This document shows, piece after piece, positions 18,501 to 61,046 of a DNA stretch of 64,000 nt. Under the pieces are notes generated by a model. It was not told the origin of the DNA. It saw nothing but the letters and a program-made list of their open reading frames with translations, and did not search any database. Location of the stretch: NCBI GenBank assembly GCA_964036045.1, contig OZ038385.1, positions 21,108,720 to 21,172,719 on the forward strand. The letters run 5' to 3'. The first letter of the stretch is position 1, and each line of letters opens with the position of its first letter. This stretch comes from Eutreptiella sp. 'Long Island Sound 2002'. Taxonomy: Eukaryota; Euglenozoa; Euglenophyceae; Eutreptiales; Eutreptiaceae. The translations under genes and the position numbers were made by a program.

Positions 18501-21500
18501 AGCATGCGGAGTCCGACACAGGGCCAGTCAAGAGAAAAACGCGGTACCGGCACCGATGGGTTCGGCAAAACAGGCTAACTGAATTAGGGGCTGACGCCCC
18601 GCTACCTGGAGCCTCCCAGTGACCCCCAGGAAATAGCTGTGTCTCCATCAATCTGACACACATGCAGGACTCTGCACCACCCAGCGTCCCGATCACCCAG
18701 CACTCAGCAATACCCCACAACACAGGGAGCACCTTGCAACGAGACTGAGCCATCTTGGCCCGTTTTGCATTGAATCTCCATCGGTCCACAAACGCCTGAA
18801 CGCACGGAGACGCGAGCAGAGCCACAGAGATGGGCTATGAGTCAACCCAACACCAAACGGGTGGAGCAATTGGAGGGCTTTGGACTATGCTTCAAAAGGC
18901 ACACTTTTTTTTTCCAAAAATGCACACACATCCCAATACGAACAGGCATCTCGATGCTCATTCCAAGCAGGATGTGGGAGCCCCTGGCTTCCTGTTCTCG
19001 TTGTCTGGAATTCCCATGAAGCTCGTTCAAGCCTCCAAGCCACATCGGCGATCAGCAGGTCATCGATCCCTGTGGTTGTCGACAGTGGTGCGTTACGTCA
19101 CGGTGGGCTTGCATGCGTGCGTGCAAGCACTCGGGCAGACCTGCCTTTACGTTCCCTACTTCCTGCTTTGTGGGTCACTGCTCACCGCAACCCCCCCCTG
19201 CCCCAGACACAGAGCGGACGACGCGCACGTTAGTGTTCTGAACTGGCACCAAATGAACAGCGTCAGATCAAATCCATTCTTTTTTGAAACTGTCTGGTAG
19301 AGTCAGACACAGCGACAACTGCGGCACCGGCACATCAGACATGTGGTCCGAGGTCATAAATGCGCCTCCTTGCACCTCCCTTGAAAATCTGAATTCCTCT
19401 AGATTGACACCAAGAGATCAAAACGACAAACTCGAGCAGCAAAACCAGCCAGTTGTGAACTTCTCGTGAAGTGGCAGGCCAAGCAAAGAAAGCAAGGGGG
19501 GGGGGGAGGAACACAGAGACGCACAACTTGGAAAGGACGAACAATGACACCCTGCTCACTTGAAGCCGATCATTGCAAGGTAGTGGATCATGGTCGTTGC
19601 AGAGACACACATGTAGGGTTCAGAAGAAAAAGTAATATCAGCCACTATCATTTGCACGAGAGACGAAAAGTATCATCACAACCCAGCACAATACAAAGAG
19701 CACCCCGAGATCGGAGCACGGCCTCCATAGCCCTTTAGTGCAACATGTCAAAGAGCCCCTTGAGGACAAATGGTACAATAAATGTGACGGTGAAAGCAGA
19801 CAAACACATGTTGGGCTCAGAAATGAAGAATCACATCAGCCAAAATCATTTGCATGAGAGACTAAAAGTATGATTACAACCCAGCATAGGGTGCGCTAAC
19901 CCAATTGGAAGCAGACAAACACATGTTGGGCTCAGCAGTAAAAATTGATATCAGTCAGAATCATTTGCATGAGAGACTAAAGGTATCATCACAACCCAGC
20001 ATAGGGTGCACTAATCCAATTGGAAGCAGGAAAAACTATATTGGGCTCAGTGGTGAAGAATGATATCAGCCAAAATCATTTGCATGAGAGACTAAAAGTA
20101 TCATCACAACCCAGCATAGGGTGCACTAACCGAAGTGGAAGCAGGAAAAACTATATTGGGCTCAGTGGTGAAGATTGATATCAGTCAAAATCATTTGCAT
20201 GAGAGACTAAAAGTATCATCACAACCCAGCATAGGGTGCGCTAATCCAATTGGAAGCAGGAAAAACTATATTGGGCTCAGTGGTGAAGAATGATATCAGC
20301 CAAAATCATTTGCATGAGAGACTAAAAGTATCATCACAACCCAGCATAGGGTGCGCTAATCTAATTGGAGGCAGGGAAAAATAGGTCGGGCTCAGCAGTA
20401 AAAATTGATATCAGTCAGAATCATTTGCATGAGAGACTAAAAGTATCATCACAACCCAGCATAGGGTGCACTAATCCAATTGGAAGCAGGAAAAACTATA
20501 TTGGGCTCAGTGGTGAAGAATGATATCAGCCAAAATCATTTGCATGAGAGACTAAAAGTATCATCACAACCCAGCATAGGGTGCACTAATCTAATTGGAG
20601 GCAGGGAAAAATAGGTTGGGCTCAGCAGTAAAAATTGATATCAGTCAGAATCATTTGCATGAGAGACTAAAAGTATCATCACAACCCAGCATAGGGTGCG
20701 CTAATCCAATTGGAGGCAGGAAAAACTATATTGGGCTCAGTGGTGAAGATTGATATCAGCCAAAATCATTTGCATGAGAGACTAAAAGTATCATCACAAC
20801 CCAGCATAGGGTGCACTAATCCAATTGGAAGCAGGAAAAACTATATTGGGCTCAGTGGTGAAGAATGATATCAGCCAAAATCATTTGCATGAGAGACTAA
20901 AGGTATCATCACAACCCAGCATAGGGTGCACTAATCCAATTGGAAGCAGGAAAAACTATATTGGGCTCAGTGGTGAAGAATGATATCAGCCAAAATCATT
21001 TGCATGAGAGACTAAAAGTATCATCACAACCCAGCATAGGGTGCACTAATCCAATTGGAAGCAGGAAAAACTATATTGGGCTCAGTGGTGAAGAATGATA
21101 TCAGCCAAAATCATTTGCATGAGAGACTAAAAGTATCATCACAACCCAGCATAGGGTGCGCTAATCTAATTGGAGGCAGGGAAAAATAGGTTGGGCTCAG
21201 TAGTAAAAATTGATATCAGTCAGAATCATTTGCATGAGAGACTAAAAGTATCATCACAACCCAGCATAGGGTGCACTAATCCAATTGGAAGCAGGAAAAA
21301 CTATATTGGGCTCAGTGGTGAAGAATGATATCAGCCAAAATCATTTGCATGAGAGACTAAAAGTATCATCACAACCCAGCATAGGGTGCGCTAATCTAAT
21401 TGGAGGCAGGGAAAAATAGGTTGGGCTCAGCAGTAAAAATTGATATCAGTCAGAATCATTTGCATGAGAGACTAAAAGTATCATCACAACCCAGCATAGG

Positions 21501-23160
21501 GTGCACTAATCCAATTGGAAGCAGGAAAAACTATATTGGGCTCAGTGGTGAAGAATGATATCAGCCAAAATCATTTGCATGAGAGACTAAAAGTATCATC
21601 ACAACCCAGCATAGGGTGCACTAATCCAATTGGAAGCAGGAAAAACTATATTGGGCTCAGTGGTGAAGAATGATAACAGCCAAAATCATTTGCATGAGAG
21701 ACTAAAAGTATCATCACAACCCAGCATAGGGTGCACTAATCCAATTGGAAGCAGGAAAAACTATATTGGGCTCAGTGGTGAAGAATGATATCAGCCAAAA
21801 TCATTTGCATGAGAGACTAAAAGTATCATCACAACCCAGCATAGGGTGCACTAATCCAATTGGAAGCAGGAAAAACTATATTGGGCTCAGTGGTGAAGAA
21901 TGATAACAGCCAAAATCATTTGCATGAGAGACTAAAAGTATCATCACAACCCAGCATAGGGTGCACTAATCCAATTGGAAGCAGGAAAAACTATATTGGG
22001 CTCAGTGGTGAAGAATGATATCAGCCAAAATCATTTGCATGAGAGACTAAAAGTATCATCACAACCCAGCATAGGGTGCGCTAATCTAATTGGAGGCAGG
22101 GAAAAATAGGTTGGGCTCAGTAGTAAAAATTGATATCAGTCAGAATCATTTGCATGAGAGACTAAAAGTATCATCACAACCCAGCATAGGGTGCACTAAT
22201 CCAATTGGAAGCAGGAAAAACTATATTGGGCTCAGTGGTGAAGAATGATATCAGCCAAAATCATTTGCATGAGAGACTAAAAGTATCATCACAACCCAGC
22301 ATAGGGTGCGCTAATCTAATTGGAGGCAGGGAAAAAGAGGTTGGGCTCAGCAGTAAAAATTGATATCAGTCAGAATCATTTGCATGAGAGACTAAAAGTA
22401 TCATCACAACCCAGCATAGGGTGCACTAATCCAATTGGAAGCAGGAAAAACTATATTGGGCTCAGTGGTGAAGAATGATATCAGCCAAAATCATTTGCAT
22501 GAGAGACTAAAAGTATCATCACAACCCAGCATAGGGTGCGCTAATCTAATTGGAGGCAGGGAAAAATAGGTAGGGCTCAGCAGTAAAAATTGATATCAGT
22601 CAGAATCATTTGCATGAGAGACTAAAAGTATCATCACAACCCAGCATAGGGTGCACTAATCCAATTGGAAGCAGGAAAAACTATATTGGGCTCAGTGGTG
22701 AAGAATGATATCAGCCAAAATCATTTGCATGAGAGACTAAAAGTATCATCACAACCCAGCATAGGGTGCGCTAATCCAATTGGAGGCAGGAAAAAATAGG
22801 TTGGGCTCAGTGGTGAAAATTGATATCAGCCAAAATCATTTGCATGAGAGACTAAAAGTATCATCACAACCCAGCATAGGGTGCGCTAATCCAATTGGAG
22901 GCAGGAAAAACTATATTGGGCTCAGTGGTGAAGATTGATATCAGCCAAAATCATTTGCATGAGAGACTAAAAGTATCATCACAACCCAGCATAGGGTGCG
23001 CTAATCCAATTGGAAGCAGGAAAAACTATATTGGGCTCAGTGGTGAAGAATGATATCAGCCAAAATCATTTGCATGAGAGACTAAAAGTATCATCACAAC
23101 CGGCCAAAGTGGAAGCAGACACACACACACGCACACACACACACGCACACACACACACAC

Positions 23161-29100: not shown

Positions 29101-32100
29101 GCAACGTTGTCTTTCCCATGGCAATGTGAATATTCTTACACCTGCACAAAATGGTGGTACCAAGGTGTCCACCAGTGAACGGAAAATATTATGCCATACA
29201 ACATTACCACTGACTAAATATTGTTCAAAGGCTACAGGCCACCACATATGCTGCCAAAACGAGACACCTCTTCCCTTTGTTTACTTCCCTTCACTCCCTA
29301 TGAAGCCAGATGAACGAACCCGCGTCTTTGTTGCCGCACAGGGCGGCAGGAAAGAGAAAGCGCCCCCCTGCAACCACCCCTTAGGCCAGAGCCTCTGTGC
29401 GGTTGGGTGTTATGAACATTCCGTTCCCCCGGCCATGCTGCTCCACTGGGTGCATCTGGATGCGCTTGCTGGGTGACTCCGGGGGGCGGGGGGGTCCCCT
29501 CCGCGCTTGCCTCCTTCCCTCTCCTGACTTGGGGTCTGCTGCGTAGGTTGTGTGGGGTTCCACGATCCCTCTGTGGTGGGGCTGCCTCATCAGGCGGCTT
29601 TTGGCCACTGGGGTGCCCACTTCCCCTGGGTTTTCTGAGGCCTGTTTCAGTGAATGCTACACACCAAACAACAACACAAAAGGAACGGGCATGGAATCCC
29701 ATTTCTCCCACCCCTCAGTCTTCTGTCCCGACCCCCCTTCCTTCCTGATGGGCAACTTTTCGTCCCACCATGCTACAGGGGAGGTTGGCACACAGAAACA
29801 GCACCAAACTTCTGCTTGGGAGTTGCTGACCCTGGTCAGCCGATTTTGTCACTACTGGAGTAACGTGGAGTAACATGCAGGGGGTCCCTTTGTTCACACT
29901 AATCCCATGGTGGTGTTGTGCGCTTTCTGTATGGTCCCCCGTAGGGTCCTATCTTCTGGCCTATTTGGTGACACTACAAGCACATGGAAACCCGTTGGAA
30001 GCCATGTAGCACCGTTTGGAGCCACGCAGACATGATGACAAATGTCATGGAGGTATGATCCTAGCTGAATGCTGTTGCCATTGGCACAACGCAGACATAT
30101 GGGAAAACAAAGATTGCAATTGCTAATTTCTGGGAATGCTATGCGCTACTGAGGGGTGGCACTTGGTGATCTGACGAACCATGTCAGCAGTGGCGCGGTT
30201 GTCGCACTCTCACCCACCAAAATTTTTTTACCCATTGGCCCCAGTGATGAGCCGTTGTCGATGCTGGTCTCTCTCCAGTTGGTTGCCTTGAATGTCCAAC
30301 ACCACCTTCCTGGTTCTTTGCTTGTCAGATCTGTGATTTTTTCCTTCGCGGCAGCCACCATGATTCACAACGTGTGGGTTGTGAAATGTCCAAAAATCTT
30401 GCTGCGGATGATTACTTAGACGCATGTGATTGAAACTATTTCCTCTTTATGATTCTGCTCATATGAAATACTGTGCTGGAAGCAGAAAGCAAGCACCAGC
30501 AGACAACCAGCCAGAGCAGCAGGTGCAGTAGCGCTGGTGCCACTGGTCCATTTTGCTCCTTCGTGCACTCGCAGCAGCCCAAACATCAGCAGCAGGGATG
30601 GGTAAAATTTTGGCGCCACTTGGGGGGTCCCCGGGCCCACAATCATTTTTTGTGACTGGTCACCAAAAAAAACAAAAAAAAAAAGGGCCATAGTGGGAAA
30701 GTGCAAACCCAAAATTATTGTGACCAAATAAGGTGTCTCTGGTAGAATTTCTCCCCTGCCTGCCTGTACTGGTGGCTGGTGTACAGGTGTGGCTGCTGTT
30801 GGTGTCGCTGCTGTTACTGCAGCGGCCCTTCTTATAGGTGCTGGCAGTCAGTCCCAACAGTCCCAGCCCTCAGAGCCCTTGCAACCTGCCCCACAGACTC
30901 GTTCAGCTGCAGCCACTACTATGTTTGGGGAAGCAGCCCACCCTGTTTGAGGCCTTCAACACACCACCCCCCAAGGCTGCACCCACTGTTGAAATTGAGC
31001 CCCTGGCCAAGGCTTTGCTGTGCTTTCAGAAACAGCATGACATTCAGGGCTGAGGGCTGCCCAAAGCGGCCGGTTTTAGGTCACCTTCTTTTATGACCTA
31101 ATATCGTGAGTTCGTGACCTTTTTTGTGACCAGGGGGGGGGGAGAATCCAGGCCGGACCACACCCCCCAAGTTACATCCATCCCTGACCAGCAGGGAAGA
31201 AGTAGCAGTGTCGTACTGGGGCAGTTGCACAGGAGCACCCGGTTTTAACCTGACAGTCTGCAGTGTTAGCTGCATTGCGGCATGCTTCAAAACCCCCACC
31301 GACAGCTCCCAGAATCTGGCGCTGCGGCATGCTGCTACCATTGGTGCTTGATCGTGACCTTTTTTGTGACCAGGGGGGGGGGGATCCAGGCCGGACCCAC
31401 CCAAGTTACATCCATCCCTGACCAGCAGGGAAGAAATGACAGTGTCGTGATGGTGCAGTCGCACAGGAGCACCCGGTTTTAACCTGACAGTCTGCAGTGT
31501 TAGCTGCATGAGCCACTGGTTGTTGTGTGTTTGCAAGTGATGCGGAGCTTGCACCCACCATGCAAGCAGAATTGCAGCAGTTATTGTTATATTTGCGCTT
31601 GACAGAGGCCAGGCGTTCCCCCCAACCGTAGCAGGCAGGGCATGCAGGTGTCCCAGTGTGTATGTTAAAAGGGCATCCAAGATATGTCCACCTCCCGCTG
31701 GGTTTCAGCTCAGGGGTTGGCTGCCCAAAATTCGTTCAGGGACCCTATTGCAAACAAGGATTGTGGAAAAAGACCCCAAAGGGGGGGGGGCTGGCCCACC
31801 TTGTTTTGATCTTACGCATTCCATAAAATCTGTTGCCCTTAGCAAACCAACCGTGCAGAAATTGCAATGTTACCAAACCACAAATGGGGCCAGTGTTCCC
31901 CCGAATCTGTTTTGGTTCATTTTGCCTGAAAACAGCCCTTTCAGGGGCCTGTGAGTACTACTCAAAGGGGGCACCTCATGACAAAGGAGTATGCTATTTT
32001 CATTATTAGATGCCTGAATGTGATGCATCATGGCAATTTACATCACGACAACTGTGATGATAAATGTGAGCCCAACCAGCGCATGCAACAGATGCAGCGC

Positions 32101-35100
32101 CCAATCAACGCACGCAGCAAAAACTGATGCAGAAAACTGCAGCACCACGAATGGCAATGGAATCTGCGAGCACTGACTCACTTGAAGCCACTTGCCGCAG
32201 CTTCAAGCTTAATAGATGCTCGGTACAAACACAGCGCCTTCATGTGATGCATCACTTCAACCTGCATCACGAAAGCTGGTGATTTGGGGAATAACAAAGA
32301 TAAATGTGAGCCCAACCAGCGCATGCAACAGATGCAGCGCCCAATCAACGCACGCAGCAAAAACTGATGCAGAAAACTGCAGCAGCACGAGTGGCAATGG
32401 AATCTGCGAGCACTGACTCACTTGAAGCCACTTGCCGCAGCTTCAAGCTTAATAGATGCTCGGTACAAACACAGCGCCTTCATGTGATGCATCACTGCAA
32501 CCTGCATCACGAAAGCTGGTGATTTGGGGAATAACAAAGATAAATGTGAGCCCAACCAGCGCATGCAACAGATGCAGCGCCCAATCAACGCACGCAGCAA
32601 AAACTGATGCAGAAAACTGCAGCAGCACGAATGGCAATGGAATCTGCGAGCACTGACTCACTTGAAGCCACTTGCCGCAGCTTCAAGCTTAATAGATGCT
32701 CGGTACAAACACAGCGCCTTCATGTGATGCATCACTGCAACCTGCATCACGAAAGCTGGTGATTTGGGGAATAACAAAGATAAATGTGAGCCCAACCAGC
32801 GCATGCAACAGATGCAGCGCCCAATCAACGCACGCAGCAAAAACTGATGCAGAAAACTGGAGCACCACGAGTGGCAATGGAATCTGCGAGCACTGACTCA
32901 CTTGAAGCCACTTGCCGCAGCTTCAAGCTTAATAGATGCTCGGTACAAACACAGCGCCTTCATGTGATGCATCACTTCAACCTGCATCACGAAAACTGGT
33001 GATTTGGGGAATAACAAAGATAAATGTGAGCCCAACCAGCGCATGCAACAGATGCAGCGCCCAATCAACGCACGCAGCAAAAACTGATGCAGAAAACTGC
33101 AGCAGCACGAATGGCAATGGAATCTGCGAGCACTGACTCACTTGAAGCCACTTGCCGCAGCTTCAAGCTTAATAGATGCTCGGTGAAAACACAGCGCCTT
33201 CATGTGATGCATCACTTCAACCTGCATCACGAAAACTGGTAATTTGGGGAATAACAAAGATAAATGTGAGCCCAACCAGCGCATGCAACAGATGCAGCGC
33301 CCAATCAACGCACGCAGCAAAAACTGATGCAGAAAACTGGAGCACCACGAGTGGCAATGGAATCTGCGAGCACTGACTCACTTGAAGCCACTTGCCGCAG
33401 CTTCAAGCTTAATAGATGCTCGGTACAAACACAGCGCCTTCATGTGATGCATCACTTCAACCTGCATCACGAAAACTGGTAATTTGGGGAATAACAAAGA
33501 TAAATGTGAGCCCAACCAGCGCATGCAACAGATGCAGCGCCCAATCAACGCACGCAGCAAAAACTGATGCAGAAAACTGCAGCAGCACGAATGGCAATGG
33601 AATCTGCGAGCACTGACTCACTTGAAGCCACTTGCCGCAGCTTCAAGCTTAATAGATGCTCGGTGAAAACACAGCGCCTTCATGTGATGCATCACTTCAA
33701 CCTGCATCACGAAAGCTGGTGATTTGGGGAATAACAAAGATAAATGTGAGCACAACCAGCGCATGCAACAGATGCAGCGCCCAATCAACGCACGCAGCAA
33801 AAACTGATGCAGAAAACTGGAGCACCACGAGTGGCAATGGAATCTGCGAGCACTGACTCACTTGAAGCCACTTGCCGCAGCTTCAAGCTTAATAGATGCT
33901 CGGTACAAACACAGCGCCTTCATGTGATGCATCACTTCAACCTGCATCACGAAAACTGGTAATTTGGGGAATAACAAAGATAAATGTGAGCCCAACCAGC
34001 GCATGCAACAGATGCAGCGCCCAATCAACGCACGCAGCAAAAACTGATGCAGAAAACTGCAGCAGCACGAATGGCAATGGAATCTGCGAGCACTGACTCA
34101 CTTGAAGCCACTTGCCGCAGCTTCAAGCTTAATAGATGCTCGGTACAAACACAGCGCCTTCATGTGATGCATCACTTCAACCTGCATCACGAAAACTGGT
34201 AATTTGGGGAATAACAAAGATAAATGTGAGCCCAACCAGCGCATGCAACAGATGCAGCGCCCAATCAACGCACGCAGCAAAAACTGATGCAGAAAACTGC
34301 AGCAGCACGAATGGCAATGGAATCTGCGAGCACTGACTCACTTGAAGCCACTTGCCGCAGCTTCAAGCTTAATAGATGCTCGGTGAAAACACAGCGCCTT
34401 CATGTGATGCATCACTTCAACCTGCATCACGAAAGCTGGTGATTTGGGGAATAACAAAGATAAATGTGAGCCCAACCAGCGCATGCAACAGATGCAGCGC
34501 CCAATCAACGCACGCAGCAAAAACTGATGCAGAAAACTGCAGCACCACGAGTGGCAATGGAATCTGCGAGCACTGACTCACTTGAAGCCACTTGCCGCAG
34601 CTTCAAGCTTAATAGATGCTCGGTGAAAACACAGCGCCTTCATGTGATGCATCACTGCAACCTGCATCACGAAAGCTGGTGATTTGGGGAATAACAAAGC
34701 GAGCAGATGTACCGACCAATGGCTAGGTAACCATGTTTCCCGTTTACAACTCAGACATAAAAGAGTCCTCATAGTCATATCAGTCCACAAAGGACAGAAG
34801 AATCATCACTTCTCCACATTACTGTGCGAGAACCATTAGAATGACAGAGAAGCTTTTAAATTGCTGCATATGCCTTGAGAGTTGTTGCCACTGCTCGCTC
34901 TATGCCCTCATCGTACTCTCCGGTTCACTTTGGTAGCGATGTTTGATGCGTGAGCTGGCTGGATTGACTTTGCAATTCTGCTTGCACTTGTGGGTGCAAG
35001 CTGCCAAGGCCCTAGCCGTCCTTGTCTGGTTTCCTGCGCCTCCACCGTCGCTGTGGCCGCCGCTTTGCCAATGCTACTTGCCGGATGCAAACATTCACAT

Positions 35101-44356: not shown

Positions 44357-45066
44357 ATTTCACAATTTTGAATTGATCACGCACGCTTCTGCAGGTGTGT
44401 GGTTTTCAGAGGTGTTCCTGGGATAAACACTGTATTAATTGGCGCTGTGTGTGTGGGTCCATTGTGTTCCATTATCTTGGACACAACCCTTGTGTAGTAT
44501 ACCTGTTGTTGTTGCACTATGAACGCTGCTGGCTGATGAGCACCACTGTGATCCTTGGGTGCTGTCCTGGGGTACCTTGCGGGTGTCTTATGAGAGGCCG
44601 TCCTATGTACCCTGCCCTACCCTGCGCATGCACTCAAAAGTGTATTTCACGTTCTAGGGCAGTGCTGCCCTGCCCAACTACAAACAAAGATAGCATCATT
44701 GCATGGCAAGGGTGGGTATTGATGTGGAAGGTGCTACTGGCGTGAGTGGATCACAAAGCGGCATGGTCCAGTGGCCACTGACTCCGCGGCTACCACTCGC
44801 TTTCAAAACCCCATGCTATGGCCCAGAGGGGGTTGGTCTCTGAGCGATTTTGGGACTCTAAGAGATGCCACGTGAGCCCAGGCCTTTAAATGATGGGACC
44901 AGGCCTTCAAATGGTGAGAAACAGCCAGGTGAAGTGCCTGCTTGCTGCTTTGTACTGCCCCCGTCTCTTTCTGAGGGTCTGTTCTTGTCTGTGGTTTGGC
45001 ATGTCTCGTACCCACCTGCCCAGCCATTGCACTGTCGAGCTGCCCCGGGCCGACCCCGTATCACGT

Positions 45067-46380
45067 ATGCCCACCCTCCTCGTCGCCGGGGTCATCGCGC
45101 TGGGGCTCGTGGGAACTCTGCTCATCCCCATGAGTCCCACCAGCACCGCATTGTTTGTCCCCACCACAACCCGCACCGCGGCTCTCAGCACCGCCCAAGC
45201 GGCGGCCTGGCGAGCCCGTGCGCTACCGGTGGCGAGCGGAGCGGTGCAGCACGCACCGCAGGCCGCACGCGCACACGCGTCCCCTGATGCCGCCCCTGCC
45301 CTCCCTCCGACGCTCTCCCGCGCCCCATCCAATGCGGTGGCCGCCGCCCTCGTGACCCTGGGTGCCTTCGTCCTGGGAGCAGCACTGGGGCGCCGCTTTG
45401 CGGCCACGGAGGTCGCGTTGCTGCCAGTGTCCGGGGAGAGAGGGGCCCTTCCCGAGGGCCCGGCCATGGGGCGGCGTGGCAGTCTGGGAACGCTGGTGGC
45501 GGGCGTGGCCATGGCGCAGGGCCTGGGATCGGCTGGTCCGGCCCATGCCAAGAAGATCAGCCTCGACGAGTACTCCAAGTCCCCTGAGTTTCCCTGGCGT
45601 GGGCAGCCCCACGAGGGCCTACTCTACTACGACTTGAAGCCGGGCAGTGGGGCCCCGCTGAAGCCGGGGCAGGCGACCAAACTGGAGGTGAACTTTGACT
45701 GCAAGTACAAGAGCATCATCGCGGTGTCCTCCCGGTCCGCGGTGACTCTGGCGCAGAACCGGACCCTCGAGAAGCCCCTCGTCTTCAAGTACGGCAAGCT
45801 GCCCGTGATGTACACCGTCCCGGAGCCCACCACCGAAGTTGTAGGGACGGGCATCCTCGTGGACCGCGACCCCATTGTGGACGGGCTCTTCGTTGTGCAG
45901 TTGGATTTGAACTCGCCAGCGCGGGAGACCGAACTGAAAGTTAACGACAAAGTTCTGACAGTGAATGGTGAAGACGTGGACAACCTCGGCAAAGAGAAGG
46001 TCCGCAAGCTGCTGGCAGGGGGCCCTGATGGGACGTTGGTCGACCTGAAGGTTCAGCGATTCGTCCGAGGGGGTGGCTTTGAGACCATCGATGTGCAGGT
46101 GAAGCAGCAGACTTATCAGCGCGTCATTGTGCAGCGCCGCAAGGAGGACTTTGCGAAGCTGGAGGGAGGGGGAGGGGGTGGAATGTTCAGTGGAGAGGAT
46201 CTGGCGCCGCCACCCAATGCCCTCTTTGTGCCCGAGCTGCTTGCCGGCATGAAGAAGGGGGGGGTGCGGCGCATCATCGTGCCTCCAGAACTTGGCTACG
46301 GTCCCGACGGCAAGAATGAGATCCCACCGGGGAAGGAATTCTACTTGGAAGTGGAGATCATCAACGCTGAAGCCCAGTAG
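45067..46380 (+). CDS. Thylakoid-lumen FKBP-type prolyl isomerase with an internal PDZ domain
   Basis: 437 codons from the Met at 45067. FKBPs catalyse cis-trans isomerisation of peptidyl-prolyl bonds, and lumen members help assemble photosynthetic complexes. Residues 1-28 form a signal peptide (MPTLLVAGVIALGLVGTLLI) ending TSTALFVP. A transit-like region follows, then a twin-arginine lumen signal (MGRRGSLG at 134, hydrophobic core, cleavage after AHA at 161). The FKBP fold begins near 170 (GLLYYDLKPGSGAPLKPGQ) and ends with ELLAGMKKGGVRRIIVPPEL, GYGPDG and IPPGKEFYLEVEI. Between these halves sits a PDZ-like domain (LFVVQLDLNSPARETELKV, DKVLTVNGEDVDNL). Upstream in-frame Mets at 44890 and 45001 exist, but 45067 puts the hydrophobic core at the N-terminus. 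No introns are needed. Confidence 0.9.
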   Translation: MPTLLVAGVIALGLVGTLLIPMSPTSTALFVPTTTRTAALSTAQAAAWRARALPVASGAVQHAPQAARAHASPDAAPALPPTLSRAPSNAVAAALVTLGAFVLGAALGRRFAATEVALLPVSGERGALPEGPAMGRRGSLGTLVAGVAMAQGLGSAGPAHAKKISLDEYSKSPEFPWRGQPHEGLLYYDLKPGSGAPLKPGQATKLEVNFDCKYKSIIAVSSRSAVTLAQNRTLEKPLVFKYGKLPVMYTVPEPTTEVVGTGILVDRDPIVDGLFVVQLDLNSPARETELKVNDKVLTVNGEDVDNLGKEKVRKLLAGGPDGTLVDLKVQRFVRGGGFETIDVQVKQQTYQRVIVQRRKEDFAKLEGGGGGGMFSGEDLAPPPNALFVPELLAGMKKGGVRRIIVPPELGYGPDGKNEIPPGKEFYLEVEIINAEAQ

Positions 46381-50095: not shown

Positions 50096-50479
50096 CTCCA
50101 AAGTTCACTGGTTTGGGAACGTCTGAATGTAAAGCGTGCCGGCGCCGGCATTGGGGGGGCACCACCGAAGCACTTGTGAGCAGAGGGCCAACCGTCCTAC
50201 TCTCACCCCCCCCCCCCCCAGCCCCCTTGGCGTGGGGTAACCCAATGTAAACAGTTTATTCCTAAAACAACCCAAACCGGTACATACACCCGGACCAACC
50301 AGCACATGTACACCCCCACTCATTGGCCCTGGCTGTCTTGTGTTTCGTCCCCGGTCCCCTCTTGATCCCCCCCCCCGCCCCCCTGGTGTGGAAGGAATGC
50401 ACGCCATCCGCATGTCTACACGGGACTTCCCACAGCCGTGGACCCGTGCCAGTCTCTCCCGATGTAGGTCCCTTAACCC

Positions 50480-53400
50480 ATGGCACTCAACACTGATGAG
50501 GTCGTCGTCGTCGGGCTCGCAGTGCGGGGCGCCGCAGGGATCGTCACCAAGAACGCCTTCTGGGAATCCCTGCACCACAGCGTGCCCCCCGTCCCGTGCG
50601 CCTCAACCCGCGCGGCCCCTGGTCCTGAAATGGCCCACGCTGCTGCGCCCTTCGATTTCCGGCCGTTTGGGGTCTGCACTGACGCCTTGGGGCTGCTCCC
50701 GGCCCGAAGTCGCTTTGTGCTGGAGGCCGTGTGTGACGCCCTGCTGGACGCGTACATTCCCCCGCGGACCCTGACATGCTCCCCCACAGCGCTGTACGTC
50801 ACCGCTGCCCTGGACCCACCGGGCCTGACGGCTCCGGGGTGTCCTGCTTCCCCCGCCACCATGGCCGAGAGCATTGCGGAGCTCTGGGGCCTGACGGTAC
50901 CTCCCACCACCATCGACCCCCGCAGAGACACCGGGCTCGATGCCCTCTCCCTGGCACGCCAGGCCTTGTGGGCAGGAAGCTGTGAACTGGGCATTGTCGT
51001 CGGTTGGGCGGGCACGGAAGCGGACCCAGGCCGGGGCCACTGCGCGGTGGCGGTGCTCCAATGCATGTCGACGGCTGTCGCGCGTGCATCCGCGAGTCGT
51101 GTCTACGCCGCTGTGCGCAGCCACAGCGCCTGTGGGCCTCCAGGCGACGGTGAGACTGGAGCGGCGGCCGCTGTCGCGCATGGGCTCTGGACGGCGGCGG
51201 GGATTCCACTGGAGGACGTCGCGTTTGTCCAGGTTTTCGGGGCCGCGCGACCGCCCATCCTGGAAGCGGCCCCGCCGCTGAGCGCCGCCCGGCCTGAGAC
51301 TTCCCAAAGGTATCCACCTCCGCCGATGGTGCACCGCGACCCGAGCCTGCACCTCGTGCCCGCAGTTGTCGCGCCCATCCTCGGGCTCATCAAAGCCGCG
51401 CTGCTCGTGCATCACGGCGTTAGCGAGGCAGTCCTGAAGCCGCTGGCGGTCCCCATGGCCGACCGCACGAGCTGCGTCGGGCTGTACGCCGAGAGCCTCA
51501 GTGGCCACAGGACGCTTGCGGTCTGTGTGCCCGCCGCTGCTGGAAGCTCGCCCCCCCCGGAGGAGCCCCCGGCGCCCCTTGTGCTCGTCCTGTCGTCCCA
51601 CGCGCGATCGGGGCTGGACACCCTCGACCGCGCCTGGCACACAGCGGCTGCTCGGCTGCCGCGTGCGCTTCTCCCGTCCGCCTGCCGCACGGCCTCTGCA
51701 CTCGACACCGCCCAGCGCCACCGGCGGGTCTACGTCGCGGGCCCCGGGGCCGGCCTGGTGGATGCGGAGGTCGTGTCGGGGGCGGTTGCCGACACGCGCG
51801 CGCCTCCACCCGTCGTCTTCTGCTTCGGCGGACAGGGGAGCGGAACGCCGGCCATGGGCCGCGGGCTCGGGGCGCAGTTCCCCGTGTTCCGGGCGTCGCT
51901 CGACCGCTTCATCGCGCTCTACGCCGAACTTTCGGGGGAGTCGCTTGCGGACGTCCACGGGTTCGGCCGCCGTGATCTGTCCGACGCTGCGGTGGCCTCT
52001 GGCGCGGTAGCCGTTCCCGCGATCACCTTCGCGCAGTGCGCCCTGGTGGACCTCCTCCGCACCTTCGGGGTTGTGCCAGACGCGTGCATCGGGCACAGCA
52101 CCGGCGAGATTGCCGCGGCCTACGCCGCGCGACGGCTCAGCGCAGCGGAGGTGGTTAAGATCTGCCACGCGCACGTCGGCGCGCAGGCGGCCATGCGACC
52201 CGGCGCAATGATGGCGTATGCGCGCGCGGCCGGGGACGCCGCGGCGGACATCGCAGCCGCGGGGCAGCGGGACGCCGTGTGGGTCGCGTGCGTCAACGGC
52301 CCCGCGGCTGTGACGCTCGCAGGTGACGTGGCAGCGCTGGAGGCGCTTGGTGCGTGCGCGCGCACCCGGGACCCGCCAGTGCTGTGCAAGCTGCTCAAGG
52401 GCGTGCCCGCATACCACAGTCCCCACGCCGATGCTGGAGCGGAGGTGTTCCGGCAGCGGCTGGTGAACGGAGAAGGGGACGAGGTGCAAGGCCCTGCGGC
52501 CGACGCGGGCCGGTGCGCGCTGGTGTCGGCCGCGACCGGCGGTGTCTATGCGCCGGGGGCTGGCGACGCTGCGGCGCACTGGTGCGCGGCGTCCCTCACG
52601 GGGCTAGTGCGCTTCCAGGAGGCGTGCGAGGCGGTGCCGGCCGCGCTGGGGGCCGCCCCCGCGGCCACGGTCGCCCTGGAGGTATCCCCGCAGGCCATCC
52701 TCGGCCACTACCTGAGCGAGAACCTGCCGGGGGTGCGCTACGTGCCGGCCCTGCGCCGTCAGGCGCCGGAGGGGCCGGCGTTCCTGGGGGCCCTCGCGCG
52801 GTTGTTCGTTGCCGGGGTGCCAGTGGACTGGGGCCGCGTGCCGCGCGGGGTCGGGGACCCCTCGCGGTGCGAGCTGCACATCCCGCCGCTGCCGTGGGCG
52901 GCGGCGGAGGTCACGGGAGCGGACGCGCGCAGCGCGCGGGAGCTCGTGGTGCAGGGGCTGCGGGAGGTGCTGGGCCTTGCGGCCGGCGCCGATGTGGACC
53001 CGACACGGGAATTCGTTCACATGGGGCTGGACTCCGTCATGGGGCTGCAGCTATCGCACTGGCTGTCCCTCCGGACGGGGCGGCAGTTCCCGCATGGCCT
53101 GCACCTGAGGTACCCCACGGTCGACGCCCTGGCGCCGGTCGTGCAGCCCCTCTGCTCTAGGGACGGCGAAGTCGGAGCGTCCCCCGGGAGGCAGGTCGCG
53201 TGTGCCGGGAAGCCTGAATGCGAACCGTTCCTGTCGTCGAGCGCCCCCGACAACTCGGATGTCGTGCTTATAGGCAGTGGAGGGCACACTAGAAGCGTGC
53301 TGATGGCGCTGCAAGCAGGTGGGCGCCGCTGCACAGGTATTTACACAAACCTCGCTGCACACGTCGGACGAGAGATTGTCGGTGTGCGTGTGGCCGGGCT

Positions 53401-55822
53401 ACTGAGTGATATTCCAGGTGACGCAGTACTTCACATAGCGCTCGGTGATCCGGCACTGAAGCGGCGTTTCCTGTCCGAGTTCCCAGGCCGGCAGTGGGCG
53501 ACAATCATTCATCCACTGGCTCGTGTACACGACAGTGCTGTTGTTGGCGAAGGCAGCTTCATTGGTGCAAACGCGTACGTCGAGCCGCTCAGCAGTGTTG
53601 GGGCACACACCATTCTTACTGCCGGATCTTTTGTTGCTCACGATTCAAAGGTCGGGTCGTTCACTCTCTTCGGGGGGAATGCATGCACTGGGGGGCTGGC
53701 CATTGTCGGAGACGACTGCATCATAGGGACGGGTGCAGCGGTTTCGCCGAGAACATCCGTTGGGAACGGCAGTAAGTTGGGGTCTGGGTCAGCGGCGCAC
53801 TTCGACATTCCTGCGGGATGTACTGCCGTAGGCACCCCAGCGCAATGGGTTGTTGCAAAGACCGGAGACAGTAGTGTGAACGCTGCCGAGCCCGCCAGCC
53901 CAGTCTCAATGCAGATCGCAACCGAGGCGCTCAGGGAAGTGCTCGGACTTACTTTGGGTGCTCCTATCAGTGGTGCAGAGAATTTGGAAGCGTTAGGGAT
54001 AACTTCCATCACAAGTATGGTGCTGTCCAATTCCTTGTATCGCCGCCTGGGTCATGCATTTTCGCCATCATTTCCGATCACACATCCAACTGTGAATGCT
54101 TTGGCGAGGTTGATCCAGCCATTCTGTCCGAAAGAGGCGGCATTTGATGCGGGTTCGGATGTTGCCATTTCATCTGCGCCAGAGAAGGGCAAGGAGCCTG
54201 AATGCGAACCGTTCCTGTCGTCGAGCGCCCCCGACAACTCAGATGTCGTTCTTATAGGCAGTGGAGGGCACACTAGAAGCGTGCTGATGGCGCTGCAAGC
54301 AGGTGGGCGCCGCTGCACAGGTATTTACACAAACCTCGCTGCACACGTCGGACGAGAGATTGTCGGTGTGCGTGTGGCCGGGCTGCTGAGTGATATTCCA
54401 GGTGACGCAGTACTTCACATAGCGCTCGGTGATCCGGCACTGAAGCGGCGTTTCCTGTCCGAGTTCCCAGGCCGGCAGTGGGCGACAATCATTCATCCAC
54501 TGGCTCGTGTACACGACAGTGCTGTTGTTGGCGAAGGCAGCTTCATTGGTGCAAACGCGTACGTCGAGCCGCTCAGCAGTGTTGGGGCACACACCATTCT
54601 TACTGCCGGATCCTTTGTTGCTCACGATTCAAAGGTCGGGTCGTTCACTCTCTTCGGGGGGAATGCATGCACTGGGGGGCTGGCCATTGTCGGAGACGAC
54701 TGCATCATAGGGACGGGTGCAGCGGTTTCGCCGAGAACATCCGTTGGGAACGGCAGTAAGTTGGGGTCTGGGTCAGCGGCGCACTTCGACATTCCTGCGG
54801 GATGTACTGCCGTAGGCACCCCAGCGCAATGGGTTGTTGCAAAGACCGGAGACAGTAGCGTGAACGCTGCCGAGCCCGCCAGCCCAGTCTCAATGCAGAT
54901 CGCAACCGAGGCGCTCAGGGAAGTGCTCGGACTTACTTTGGGTGCTCCTATCAGTGGTGCAGAGAATTTGGAAGCGTTAGGGATAACTTCCATCACAAGT
55001 ATGGTGCTGTCCAATTCCTTGTATCGCCGCCTGGGTCATGCATTTTCGCCATCATTTCCGATCACACATCCAACTGTGAATGCTTTGGCGAGGTTGATCC
55101 AGCCATTCTGTCCGAAAGAGGCGGCATTTGATGCGGGTTCGGATGTTGCCATTTCATCTGCGCCAGAGAAGGGCAAGGAGCCTGAATGCGAACCGTTCCT
55201 GTCGTCGAGCGCCCCCGACAACTCAGATGTCGTTCTTATAGGCAGTGGAGGGCACACTAGAAGCGTGCTGATGGCGCTGCAAGCAGGTGGGCGCCGCTGC
55301 ACAGGTATTTACACAAACCTCGCTGCACACGTCGGACGAGAGATTGTCGGTGTGCGTGTGGCCGGGCTACTGAGTGATATTCCAGGTGACGCAGTACTTC
55401 ACATAGCGCTCGGTGATCCGGCACTGAAGCGGCGTTTCCTGTCCGAGTTCCCAGGCCGGCAGTGGGCGACAATCATTCATCCACTGGCTCGTGTACACGA
55501 CAGTGCTGTTGTTGGCGAAGGCAGCTTCATTGGTGCAAACGCGTACGTCGAGCCGCTCAGCAGTGTTGGGGCACACACCATTCTTACTGCCGGATCTTTT
55601 GTTGCTCACGATTCAAAGGTCGGGTCGTTCACTCTCTTCGGGGGGAATGCATGCACTGGGGGGCTGGCCATTGTCGGAGACGACTGCATCATAGGGACGG
55701 GTGCAGCGGTTTCGCCGAGAACATCCGTTGGGAACGGCAGCAAGTTGGGGTCTGGGTCAGCGGCGCACTTCGACATTCCTGCGGGATGTACTGCCGTAGG
55801 CACCCCAGCGCAATGGAGCTGA
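50480..55822 (+). CDS. Polyketide-synthase-like protein: dead KS, AT, ACP, then tandem hexapeptide-acyltransferase/ACP units
   Basis: A single 1780-codon exon; start context ACCCATGG. Residues 8-330 have a ketosynthase shape (VVVVGLAVRGAAG at the start, PILGLIKAALLVHH near the end). The active-site Cys region reads TIDPRRDTGLDALS, and the EAHGTG and GH motifs read VQVFGAA and AVVAP, so Cys and both His appear lost. Residues 445-760 are an acyltransferase with GQGSG, GHSTGE (Ser540) and YHSPHAD (His646). A carrier follows, GLDSV with Ser852. From residue 912 a 328-residue unit repeats: Rossmann-type VVLIGSGGHTRSVLMAL, then a left-handed beta helix with VAHDSKVG (likely catalytic His) and GTPAQW, as in NeuD/PglD sugar acyltransferases, then a carrier with LGITSI (Ser1176, Ser1504). 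The third copy stops after its acyltransferase. No reductase, dehydratase or thioesterase is seen. Product unknown. Confidence 0.9.
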   Translation: MALNTDEVVVVGLAVRGAAGIVTKNAFWESLHHSVPPVPCASTRAAPGPEMAHAAAPFDFRPFGVCTDALGLLPARSRFVLEAVCDALLDAYIPPRTLTCSPTALYVTAALDPPGLTAPGCPASPATMAESIAELWGLTVPPTTIDPRRDTGLDALSLARQALWAGSCELGIVVGWAGTEADPGRGHCAVAVLQCMSTAVARASASRVYAAVRSHSACGPPGDGETGAAAAVAHGLWTAAGIPLEDVAFVQVFGAARPPILEAAPPLSAARPETSQRYPPPPMVHRDPSLHLVPAVVAPILGLIKAALLVHHGVSEAVLKPLAVPMADRTSCVGLYAESLSGHRTLAVCVPAAAGSSPPPEEPPAPLVLVLSSHARSGLDTLDRAWHTAAARLPRALLPSACRTASALDTAQRHRRVYVAGPGAGLVDAEVVSGAVADTRAPPPVVFCFGGQGSGTPAMGRGLGAQFPVFRASLDRFIALYAELSGESLADVHGFGRRDLSDAAVASGAVAVPAITFAQCALVDLLRTFGVVPDACIGHSTGEIAAAYAARRLSAAEVVKICHAHVGAQAAMRPGAMMAYARAAGDAAADIAAAGQRDAVWVACVNGPAAVTLAGDVAALEALGACARTRDPPVLCKLLKGVPAYHSPHADAGAEVFRQRLVNGEGDEVQGPAADAGRCALVSAATGGVYAPGAGDAAAHWCAASLTGLVRFQEACEAVPAALGAAPAATVALEVSPQAILGHYLSENLPGVRYVPALRRQAPEGPAFLGALARLFVAGVPVDWGRVPRGVGDPSRCELHIPPLPWAAAEVTGADARSARELVVQGLREVLGLAAGADVDPTREFVHMGLDSVMGLQLSHWLSLRTGRQFPHGLHLRYPTVDALAPVVQPLCSRDGEVGASPGRQVACAGKPECEPFLSSSAPDNSDVVLIGSGGHTRSVLMALQAGGRRCTGIYTNLAAHVGREIVGVRVAGLLSDIPGDAVLHIALGDPALKRRFLSEFPGRQWATIIHPLARVHDSAVVGEGSFIGANAYVEPLSSVGAHTILTAGSFVAHDSKVGSFTLFGGNACTGGLAIVGDDCIIGTGAAVSPRTSVGNGSKLGSGSAAHFDIPAGCTAVGTPAQWVVAKTGDSSVNAAEPASPVSMQIATEALREVLGLTLGAPISGAENLEALGITSITSMVLSNSLYRRLGHAFSPSFPITHPTVNALARLIQPFCPKEAAFDAGSDVAISSAPEKGKEPECEPFLSSSAPDNSDVVLIGSGGHTRSVLMALQAGGRRCTGIYTNLAAHVGREIVGVRVAGLLSDIPGDAVLHIALGDPALKRRFLSEFPGRQWATIIHPLARVHDSAVVGEGSFIGANAYVEPLSSVGAHTILTAGSFVAHDSKVGSFTLFGGNACTGGLAIVGDDCIIGTGAAVSPRTSVGNGSKLGSGSAAHFDIPAGCTAVGTPAQWVVAKTGDSSVNAAEPASPVSMQIATEALREVLGLTLGAPISGAENLEALGITSITSMVLSNSLYRRLGHAFSPSFPITHPTVNALARLIQPFCPKEAAFDAGSDVAISSAPEKGKEPECEPFLSSSAPDNSDVVLIGSGGHTRSVLMALQAGGRRCTGIYTNLAAHVGREIVGVRVAGLLSDIPGDAVLHIALGDPALKRRFLSEFPGRQWATIIHPLARVHDSAVVGEGSFIGANAYVEPLSSVGAHTILTAGSFVAHDSKVGSFTLFGGNACTGGLAIVGDDCIIGTGAAVSPRTSVGNGSKLGSGSAAHFDIPAGCTAVGTPAQWS
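53213..55822 (+). repeat. 984-bp coding tandem repeat inside the PKS-like gene (2.65 copies)
   Basis: Copies start at 53213, 54197 and 55181, exactly 984 bases (328 codons) apart, and differ at only a handful of sites, for example GGATCTTTT or GGATCCTTT, and AGTAGTGTG or AGTAGCGTG. Copy 3 ends at CAATGGAGCTGA, where copies 1 and 2 read CAATGGGTTGTT. Confidence 0.97.
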
Positions 55823-58521: not shown

Positions 58522-58924
58522 GGAGATATGACCCGGGTCCTCCGCCATCAAGGGGGGAGGGGGTTGCATGCTCTGTGCGCACACAGTGCAAAGTTTTGGT
58601 ATATCAATTTACACGGGCATTCCTGCATGTTTCTATGCCACATGGCCAAAATACACTTTTTTTTTTTGCACTACTCACCATCGTGATTTTCAGAGGGGCT
58701 CTCCACCAGGTACAACCTTCAGCAACGACGCCTCTAGGGGATCCATGTGGCATGGGGGTTGGGGTCTGGAATGACGTGGATGGGCCACAGTGCACCACCC
58801 AAGTTTCGCGACCCCCCCCCCCCTCCCATCCATGGGAGGGGCGTGAAGTGGCAGAAGCAACAGTTGTGAGTAGGGGGACAACTGTGCCACTCTCACACAG
58901 AATTCCCCCCTGGCTGCTAGGTAG
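58522..58924 (+). repeat. 400-bp duplicated segment, copy 1
   Basis: It is the same as 60653-61046 from GGAGATATGACCCGGGTCC to CCTGGCTGCTAGGTAG, except for one 9-base length difference. It sits directly upstream of the RNase H relic. Confidence 0.95.
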
Positions 58925-60652: not shown

Positions 60653-61046
60653 GGAGATATGACCCGGGTCCTCCGCCATCAAGGGGGGAGGGGGTTGCAT
60701 GCTCTGTGCGCACACAGTGCAAAGTTTTGGTATATCAATTTACACGGGCATTCCTGCATGTTTCTATGCCACATGGCCAAAATACACTTTTTTTTTTTGC
60801 ACTACTCACCATCGTGATTTTCAGAGGGGCTCTCCACCAGGTACAACCTTCAGCAACGACGCCTCTAGGGGATCCATGTGGCATGGGGGTTGGGGTCTGG
60901 AATGACGTGGATGGGCCACAGTGCACCACCCAAGTTTCGCGACCCCCCCCCCCCTCCCATCCATGGGAGGGGCGTGAAGTGGCACTTGTGAGTAGGGGGA
61001 CAACTGTGCCACTCTCACACAGAATTCCCCCCTGGCTGCTAGGTAG
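60653..61046 (+). repeat. 400-bp duplicated segment, copy 2
   Basis: Sister of 58522-58924; the downstream sequence is unrelated (no RNase H relic). Confidence 0.95.

Follow-up and report, generated by a model that had tools for sequence, protein, structure and literature searches.

The window analysed here, i.e. the whole stretch of 64,000 nucleotides, contains a single uninterrupted open reading frame at 50480-55822 (+), which runs from ATG to TGA and encodes a protein of 1780 amino acids (P0001). An in-frame stop lies two codons upstream of the ATG at 50480, and the frame itself begins at 50477. Simulated 200 times with a first-order Markov model and read in six frames, the ORF region (50480-55822) gave a longest stop-free run of 289 codons on average and of 490 at most. 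The domain order can be read directly from the profile matches as KS-like, AT, ACP1, NeuD1, ACP2, NeuD2, ACP3, NeuD3, stop. Searched as a whole, the protein is matched in Pfam by ketoacyl-synt (residues 6-178, E 8.4e-7), Acyl_transf_1 (residues 446-780, E 4.7e-29), PP-binding (three times, E 1.3e-27), Hexapep (six times, E 4.4e-29) and PglD_N (three times, E 3e-11), and in NCBIfam by TIGR03570 NeuD (three times, summed E 1.3e-112). The Pfam and NCBIfam searches of the whole 1780-residue product confirm the order given by the first-pass annotation, and the Pfam search that it had proposed finds the AT, ACP and hexapeptide domains alike. An antisense ORF of 658 amino acids (50603-52579) has no Pfam match and was taken as a by-product of the high GC content.

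Judged from its letters, the window is eukaryotic and intron-bearing. A bacterial window was rejected because of the scarcity of long frames (only 6 of at least 250 amino acids), the presence of minisatellites, two of them long (28.6 copies of a 115-nt unit with 92% matches at 19811-23101, and 11 copies of a 240-nt unit with 98% matches at 32059-34699) and a thiolase exon at about 952-700 (-), which has splice-like AG and GT borders and matches Pfam Thiolase_N with 7.6e-21. Nothing in the window reaches an Rfam gathering score, and no tRNA was found. Seventeen other frames (two of them overlapping in one frame) were scanned with Pfam, compared with 141 stop-to-stop frames of at least 110 amino acids in total. 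Among these 17 only the frame at 44890-46380 has clear domains, one sub-threshold match to an ABC transporter was obtained, and no candidate partner in the synthesis of sugars or polyketides came to light. A tblastn search of the window with P0001-P0127 revealed no second PKS: all 14 matches outside the ORF, produced by 13 of the 127 queries, fall in one thiolase exon. The 496-residue ORF at 44890-46380 (+) encodes a PDZ domain followed by the C-terminal part of an FKBP-type isomerase (Pfam), and its product shows weak NCBIfam matches to Ctp/DegP proteases under the cut-offs. Downstream of the P0001 gene, a pair of 300-nt direct repeats (58522-58821 and 60653-60952) is 100% identical at a distance of 2131 nt, and a second pair of 74 nt, at 58854 and 60976, is 93% identical.

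The N-terminus of P0001 (residues 6-207; 50495-51100, +) is formed by a degenerate KS N-terminal domain, matched by Pfam PF00109 with 33.3 bits when the piece is searched alone. The column of the KS catalytic cysteine is occupied by Arg149 (codon 50924-50926). Of the 119 listed PKS relatives, 110 have Cys here; Gln is found in 4, Arg in 3, Ala in 1 and a gap in 1, and for some of these nine the alignment is questionable (e.g. P0012, which has Cys in another alignment). These residue counts, as well as those given below for the AT, rest on local pairwise alignments of P0001 with the best 119 of 694 PKS matches, the match to itself being excluded. The KS C-terminal domain PF02801 is matched in Pfam neither with the whole protein nor with the piece, despite a GLIK-like motif that is still visible by eye at residues 302-305. 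Phe253 faces the His of the HGTGT motif and His291 faces the second KS His, each in 4 of 12 alignments, the remainder being out of register or gapped. Searched alone, the KS piece gives no sequence match in the PDB better than E 0.094. The label "KS-like" used previously implies more than is found, since PF02801, the active-site Cys and, for the piece alone, any PDB sequence match better than E 0.094 are missing. The loss of the Cys, along with a C-terminal half unrecognised by Pfam, led to rejection of a standard chain-extending PKS. Having no working KS, P0001 should not extend a chain, and the earlier view that it is not a chain-extending synthase is borne out as far as the sequence tells (Arg149 and the unrecognised KS C-terminal half).

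The next domain, the AT (residues 446-780; 51815-52819, +; Pfam 4.7e-29), was named in the first-pass annotation and keeps its catalytic pair. Ser540 (52097-52099) corresponds to Ser in all 119 listed PKS relatives, and His646 (52415-52417) corresponds to His in 113 and to Tyr in 6 of them. A different position distinguishes this AT: 118 of the 119 listed relatives carry an Arg within the stretch aligned with residues 561-569 and P0001 carries none. His565 (52172-52174) stands in a column where the listed relatives have Arg in 96 cases, His in 3 and another residue or a gap in 20. Such an Arg normally binds the carboxylate left free in malonyl-type substrates; starter-loading ATs, e.g. those of avermectin and erythromycin, do not have it. 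Its loss could alternatively mean that the AT is weakened; His is found at exactly this column in 3 of the 119 relatives. Among the matches listed for the PKS region, the best protein match is a Streptomyces type I PKS, which covers 56% of this query with 33% identity.

The order of remnant KS, AT and ACP together with the missing AT Arg resembles starter-loading modules. P0001 could accordingly be the starter module of a split assembly line, in which an unusual starter is loaded by the KS remnant, AT and ACP and handed over to a downstream KS of another protein, and the NeuD domains have a decorating role or are bystanders. We consider this improbable: the protein ends in three NeuD domains that keep their catalytic His, it has no recognised docking region, and no partner PKS is seen within the window.

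The carriers noted in the first-pass annotation number three, each with its phosphopantetheine Ser. ACP1 (residues 823-885; 52946-53134, +; Pfam PF00550, 1.9e-8 on the piece) has a GLDS motif with Ser852 (53033-53035). ACP2 (residues 1149-1212; 53924-54115, +; PF00550, 7.9e-9) and ACP3 (54908-55099, +), the latter in the second copy of the 984-nt unit described below, have a GITS motif with Ser1176 (54005-54007) and Ser1504 (54989-54991), respectively. For one such unit, PP-binding scores 36.1 bits and passes the Pfam cut-off of 20.8. As the Ser is preceded by Thr in place of the usual Asp (GxDS), ACP2 and ACP3 may be poor substrates for phosphopantetheinylation.

Each carrier is followed by a NeuD-type domain, resembling bacterial sugar acyltransferases. 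NeuD1 (residues 928-1122; 53261-53845, +) has its catalytic His at position 1054 (53639-53641), NeuD2 (54245-54829, +; second copy of the unit) at position 1382 (54623-54625) and NeuD3 (55229-55813, +; third, partial copy) at position 1710 (55607-55609); only Trp, Ser and the stop follow NeuD3. The hexapeptide repeats of one unit pass the Pfam cut-off (Hexapep, 46.3 bits vs 27), and the PglD_N score of 17.8 is below its cut-off of 23.4. With TIGR03570 (cut-off 160.8), a single domain scores 133.6 bits for the window unit and 123.7 and 137.5 bits for the two carrier-fused relatives P0121 and P0128 described below, i.e. all are below. Of eight free-standing NeuDs three were scored, and all three are above it (P0122 with 204.3, P0124 with 182.3 and P0129 with 184.5 bits). 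The 374.3 bits obtained for the whole of P0001 arise solely from summing three copies. The assignment "NeuD/PglD-type" therefore holds at the level of a NeuD-like superfamily, but not for the curated TIGR03570 subfamily. By these scores the carrier-fused NeuDs look like a divergent branch outside it.

The residues kept and lost in these domains are directly visible in the alignments. In PglD the catalytic His is His125, and the enzymes of this family are trimers with active sites between the subunits, according to PMC8040287. The corresponding His is aligned in all 11 sequences (window and relatives) and is present in every one of the three copies in P0001; the His-Asp pair is retained in the window NeuD, P0121 and P0128. 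Another pair, Asp35/Asp36, is described in PMC8040287 as binding the ribose and the base of the nucleotide sugar in PglD. At this position all three carrier-fused NeuDs (window, P0121 and P0128) have Thr-Asn, and the free-standing relatives keep the first Asp in 6 of 8 and the second in 3 of 8. With this replacement, something other than a nucleotide sugar may serve as the acceptor. The three catalytic His support the acyltransferase part of the earlier description of these domains as sugar-acyltransferase-like; Thr-Asn makes UDP- or dTDP-sugars of the ordinary kind less likely as acceptors. Loss of the Asp pair, as well as single-copy scores under the curated NeuD and PglD_N cut-offs, would also fit beta-helix domains that act as scaffolds only, trimerising the enzyme and performing no chemistry. 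Such a role is highly improbable, given that the catalytic His-Asp is kept in the window, P0121 and P0128 and that the NeuD N-terminal domain is the part most conserved in comparison with P0121.

All three NeuDs as well as ACP2 and ACP3 are contained in a tandem array of a 984-nt unit (53211-55816, +; 2.65 copies), the copies of which are observed directly to be about 99.5% identical. The copies occupy 53211-54194, 54195-55178 and 55179-55816, the third being partial and devoid of its ACP. The "tandem" NeuD/ACP units of the first-pass annotation are indeed repeated; the description is to be corrected in that they are near-identical copies of one 984-nt unit. Six interior sites differ between the copies and all six differences are synonymous (a K/E difference concerns the base just before the unit and hence is not an interior site). 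The chance of this result is 3e-4 to 7e-4 for single-base changes with kappa from 1 to 4. Copies 1 and 3 share the variant at two sites, copies 2 and 3 at two and copies 1 and 2 at one, and the sixth site falls beyond the partial third copy. Such a mosaic fits exchange between the copies and is unlike base-call errors, although six sites are few.

The composition of the gene changes at the border of the array. GC3 is 0.78-0.89 in the KS, AT and ACP1 parts vs 0.53-0.57 in the NeuD and later ACP parts, and the change is located at about residues 900-960. The drop from about 0.9 to about 0.55 within one gene, near residue 920, coincides with the join of ACP1 and NeuD1. The KS-AT-ACP1 half and the NeuD-ACP half probably have different histories. 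In view of so sharp a contrast, the fusion could be recent and the whole protein untested by selection.

The near-identity of the copies in DNA, the KS that is already degenerate and the jump in composition near residue 920 might be taken to mean that the array is a recent tandem duplication with no function in its copy number, that the gene is decaying, or that the array is an artefact of assembly. Taken together, we regard these explanations as quite improbable: the frame of 5.3 kb stays open, and the six of six synonymous differences along with the mosaic sharing of variants argue, as far as six sites can, against an assembly artefact and for real protein-coding copies.

The pairing of ACP and NeuD is directly observed to recur in two database fragments, P0121 and P0128, and is therefore no accident of P0001. 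P0121 (471 amino acids, from an ENA contig of 2424 bp) contains, in this order, the final part of an ACP, a NeuD and another ACP, and is 59% identical to the unit over 91% of its length. P0128 (290 amino acids, from a JGI contig of 2162 bp) consists of an ACP lacking the first helix and a NeuD, after which it ends; its identity with the window is 40% over 288 columns. Each of these fragments has one NeuD, so three copies may be unnecessary in the relatives. Identical residues between the window and P0121 number 65 of 74 in the NeuD N-terminal domain, 80 of 124 in the beta-helix and 23 of 71 in the ACP. The highest identity in the N-terminal domain suggests that the acceptor side is the most constrained and that the transferase is under strong constraint. 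A by-eye guess that the tail of P0121 is the start of a ketoreductase was dropped as unsupported (residues 346-430, phmmer and blastp, no match below E 0.04, with 13 sequences only).

At E <= 0.001 the unit retrieved seven proteins; a profile search retrieved six, one of which was shared with the first set. Apart from the two fragments, none of these relatives shows an ACP in its Pfam domain list. A NeuD part is found in none of the best 119 of 694 PKS matches (phmmer, E up to 1; the matches compared have 979-3115 amino acids, and proteins of up to 8000 amino acids were considered). The whole architecture of P0001 is seen in no other listed protein, and a fusion of NeuD, PglD or hexapeptide domains with a PKS was not found in the open-licence literature at the level of titles and abstracts. 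Viral contigs gave no relative with A1 or P0128 as the query. A5 gave four viral loci, with a NeuD frame lacking an ACP by eye in L002 and L004, and in genome contigs a single Listeria locus, at 27%, was matched by A1. In the IMG/VR contig L004, the ORF of 298 amino acids at 1925-2821 has, by eye, a NeuD part followed by a helix-turn-helix-like tail and sits downstream of an ORF resembling, again by eye, a NeuB-type synthase.

The position of the NeuD domains is relevant to how acyl groups might leave the protein. Release domains sit at the C-terminal end, where the NeuDs of P0001 are also found, and P0128 has the order ACP, NeuD, stop. P0001 might therefore be an off-loading station: some other PKS or FAS would build the chain, the ACPs of P0001 would receive it and the NeuDs would release it onto an amine or an alcohol, with the AT being secondary. 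That P0121 runs on beyond its second ACP, into a region with no assignment, is likewise counted in favour of this possibility. It is unlikely nonetheless, as P0001 has an AT of its own with Ser and His kept and tblastn reveals no second PKS in the window.

We judge it an even bet that P0001 is a non-extending, carrier-dependent acyltransferase, which derives from a type I PKS loading half and transfers acyl groups from ACP via NeuD onto an acceptor. The flow of acyl groups that we infer is as follows. The AT (Ser540/His646) would accept acyl-CoA as the donor of a monocarboxylic acyl group and load this group onto the phosphopantetheine of ACP1, possibly also onto those of ACP2 and ACP3. The NeuD left-handed beta-helix domains, with His1054, His1382 and His1710 as the presumed bases, would receive the acyl group from the adjoining ACP and acylate, on an amine or hydroxyl, an acceptor held in their N-terminal domains; the nature of both the acyl group and the acceptor is likewise inferred. 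The KS would be a remnant, structural at most, and no extension by P0001 is expected. It is possible that the three fused NeuD copies make a trimer within one chain, with each copy having its own ACP before it. This suggestion arises from the trimeric organisation of NeuD/PglD enzymes, the active sites of which lie between subunits (PMC8040287).

A bolder form of this proposal is tentative and, on balance, rather doubtful: P0001 would be a eukaryotic acyl-tagging megaenzyme with a dead KS, in which the loading half feeds an intramolecular NeuD trimer and the acceptor is not a nucleotide sugar, and ACP-NeuD proteins would represent a carrier-dependent branch of NeuD distinct from the acetyl-CoA-dependent one. 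If the proposal of loading followed by transfer is right, the gene shows a PKS losing chain building and becoming a dedicated acyl-transfer machine, and the carrier-dependent NeuD branch becomes testable from one cloned gene. The three-copy array also offers a direct test of whether one chain can encode a beta-helix trimer beside its carriers.

Like the NeuD, PglD, VioB and PerB sugar acetyltransferases (TIGR03570), the NeuD domains of P0001 consist by sequence of an N-terminal domain and a hexapeptide beta-helix with the catalytic His-Asp and a C-terminal GxPA; the best PDB sequence matches of this part are VioB (7txp), perosamine N-acetyltransferase (4ea7) and a pilin glycosylation protein (4m98). 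Unlike these enzymes, the domains are fused to carriers and to the loading half of a PKS, are present three per chain and have Thr-Asn for the Asp pair. With the KS-AT-ACP (loading) modules of type I PKSs P0001 shares the order KS-like, AT, ACP and the Ser and His of the AT, but it differs from type I PKS modules in a KS devoid of the Cys and of a recognisable C-terminal half, in an AT lacking the Arg, in the absence of reductive domains and in its termination by NeuD. LpxA and LpxD are sugar acyltransferases, beta-helix trimers with acyl-ACP as the donor; they are free-standing and the ACP acts in trans. The beta-helix of P0001 gives weak sequence matches to them, far under the curated cut-offs (42-49 vs 207-242.5 bits).

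With the multimodular type I PKSs of algae P0001 has in common eukaryotic type I PKS parts and duplicated units. Algal PKSs are often multimodular, with module duplication at 89-98% similarity in one example, and some of their terminal KS domains have a mutated active-site His, as reported in PMC4661987. Nearly all of the noniterative algal PKSs in that paper depend on an AT in trans, in contrast to P0001, which carries its own. The words hexapeptide, NeuD and acetyltransferase are absent from the main text of PMC4661987.

By analogy, the closest working counterpart of P0001 is the Pls/PosA family of amino acid polymer synthetases (TIGR02353), which likewise has a carrier and three left-handed beta-helix domains in one chain. 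The two differ in that Pls/PosA is equipped with an adenylation domain as well as six membrane helices, whereas P0001 has an AT and its ACPs alternate with NeuD-type beta-helices. Neither the 12 Pfam families that match P0001 up to E 10 nor the best 25 of 45 NCBIfam families include an adenylation domain, and TIGR02353 gives a weak local match to the beta-helix of one unit (31.6 bits vs the cut-off of 423.1). In PosA/Pls, according to PMC10522769, the three tandem left-handed beta-helix domains were modelled as an approximate three-fold unit with a carrier domain in the chain. This model provides a precedent for three fused beta-helices forming a three-fold unit beside a carrier, as would be the case in P0001.
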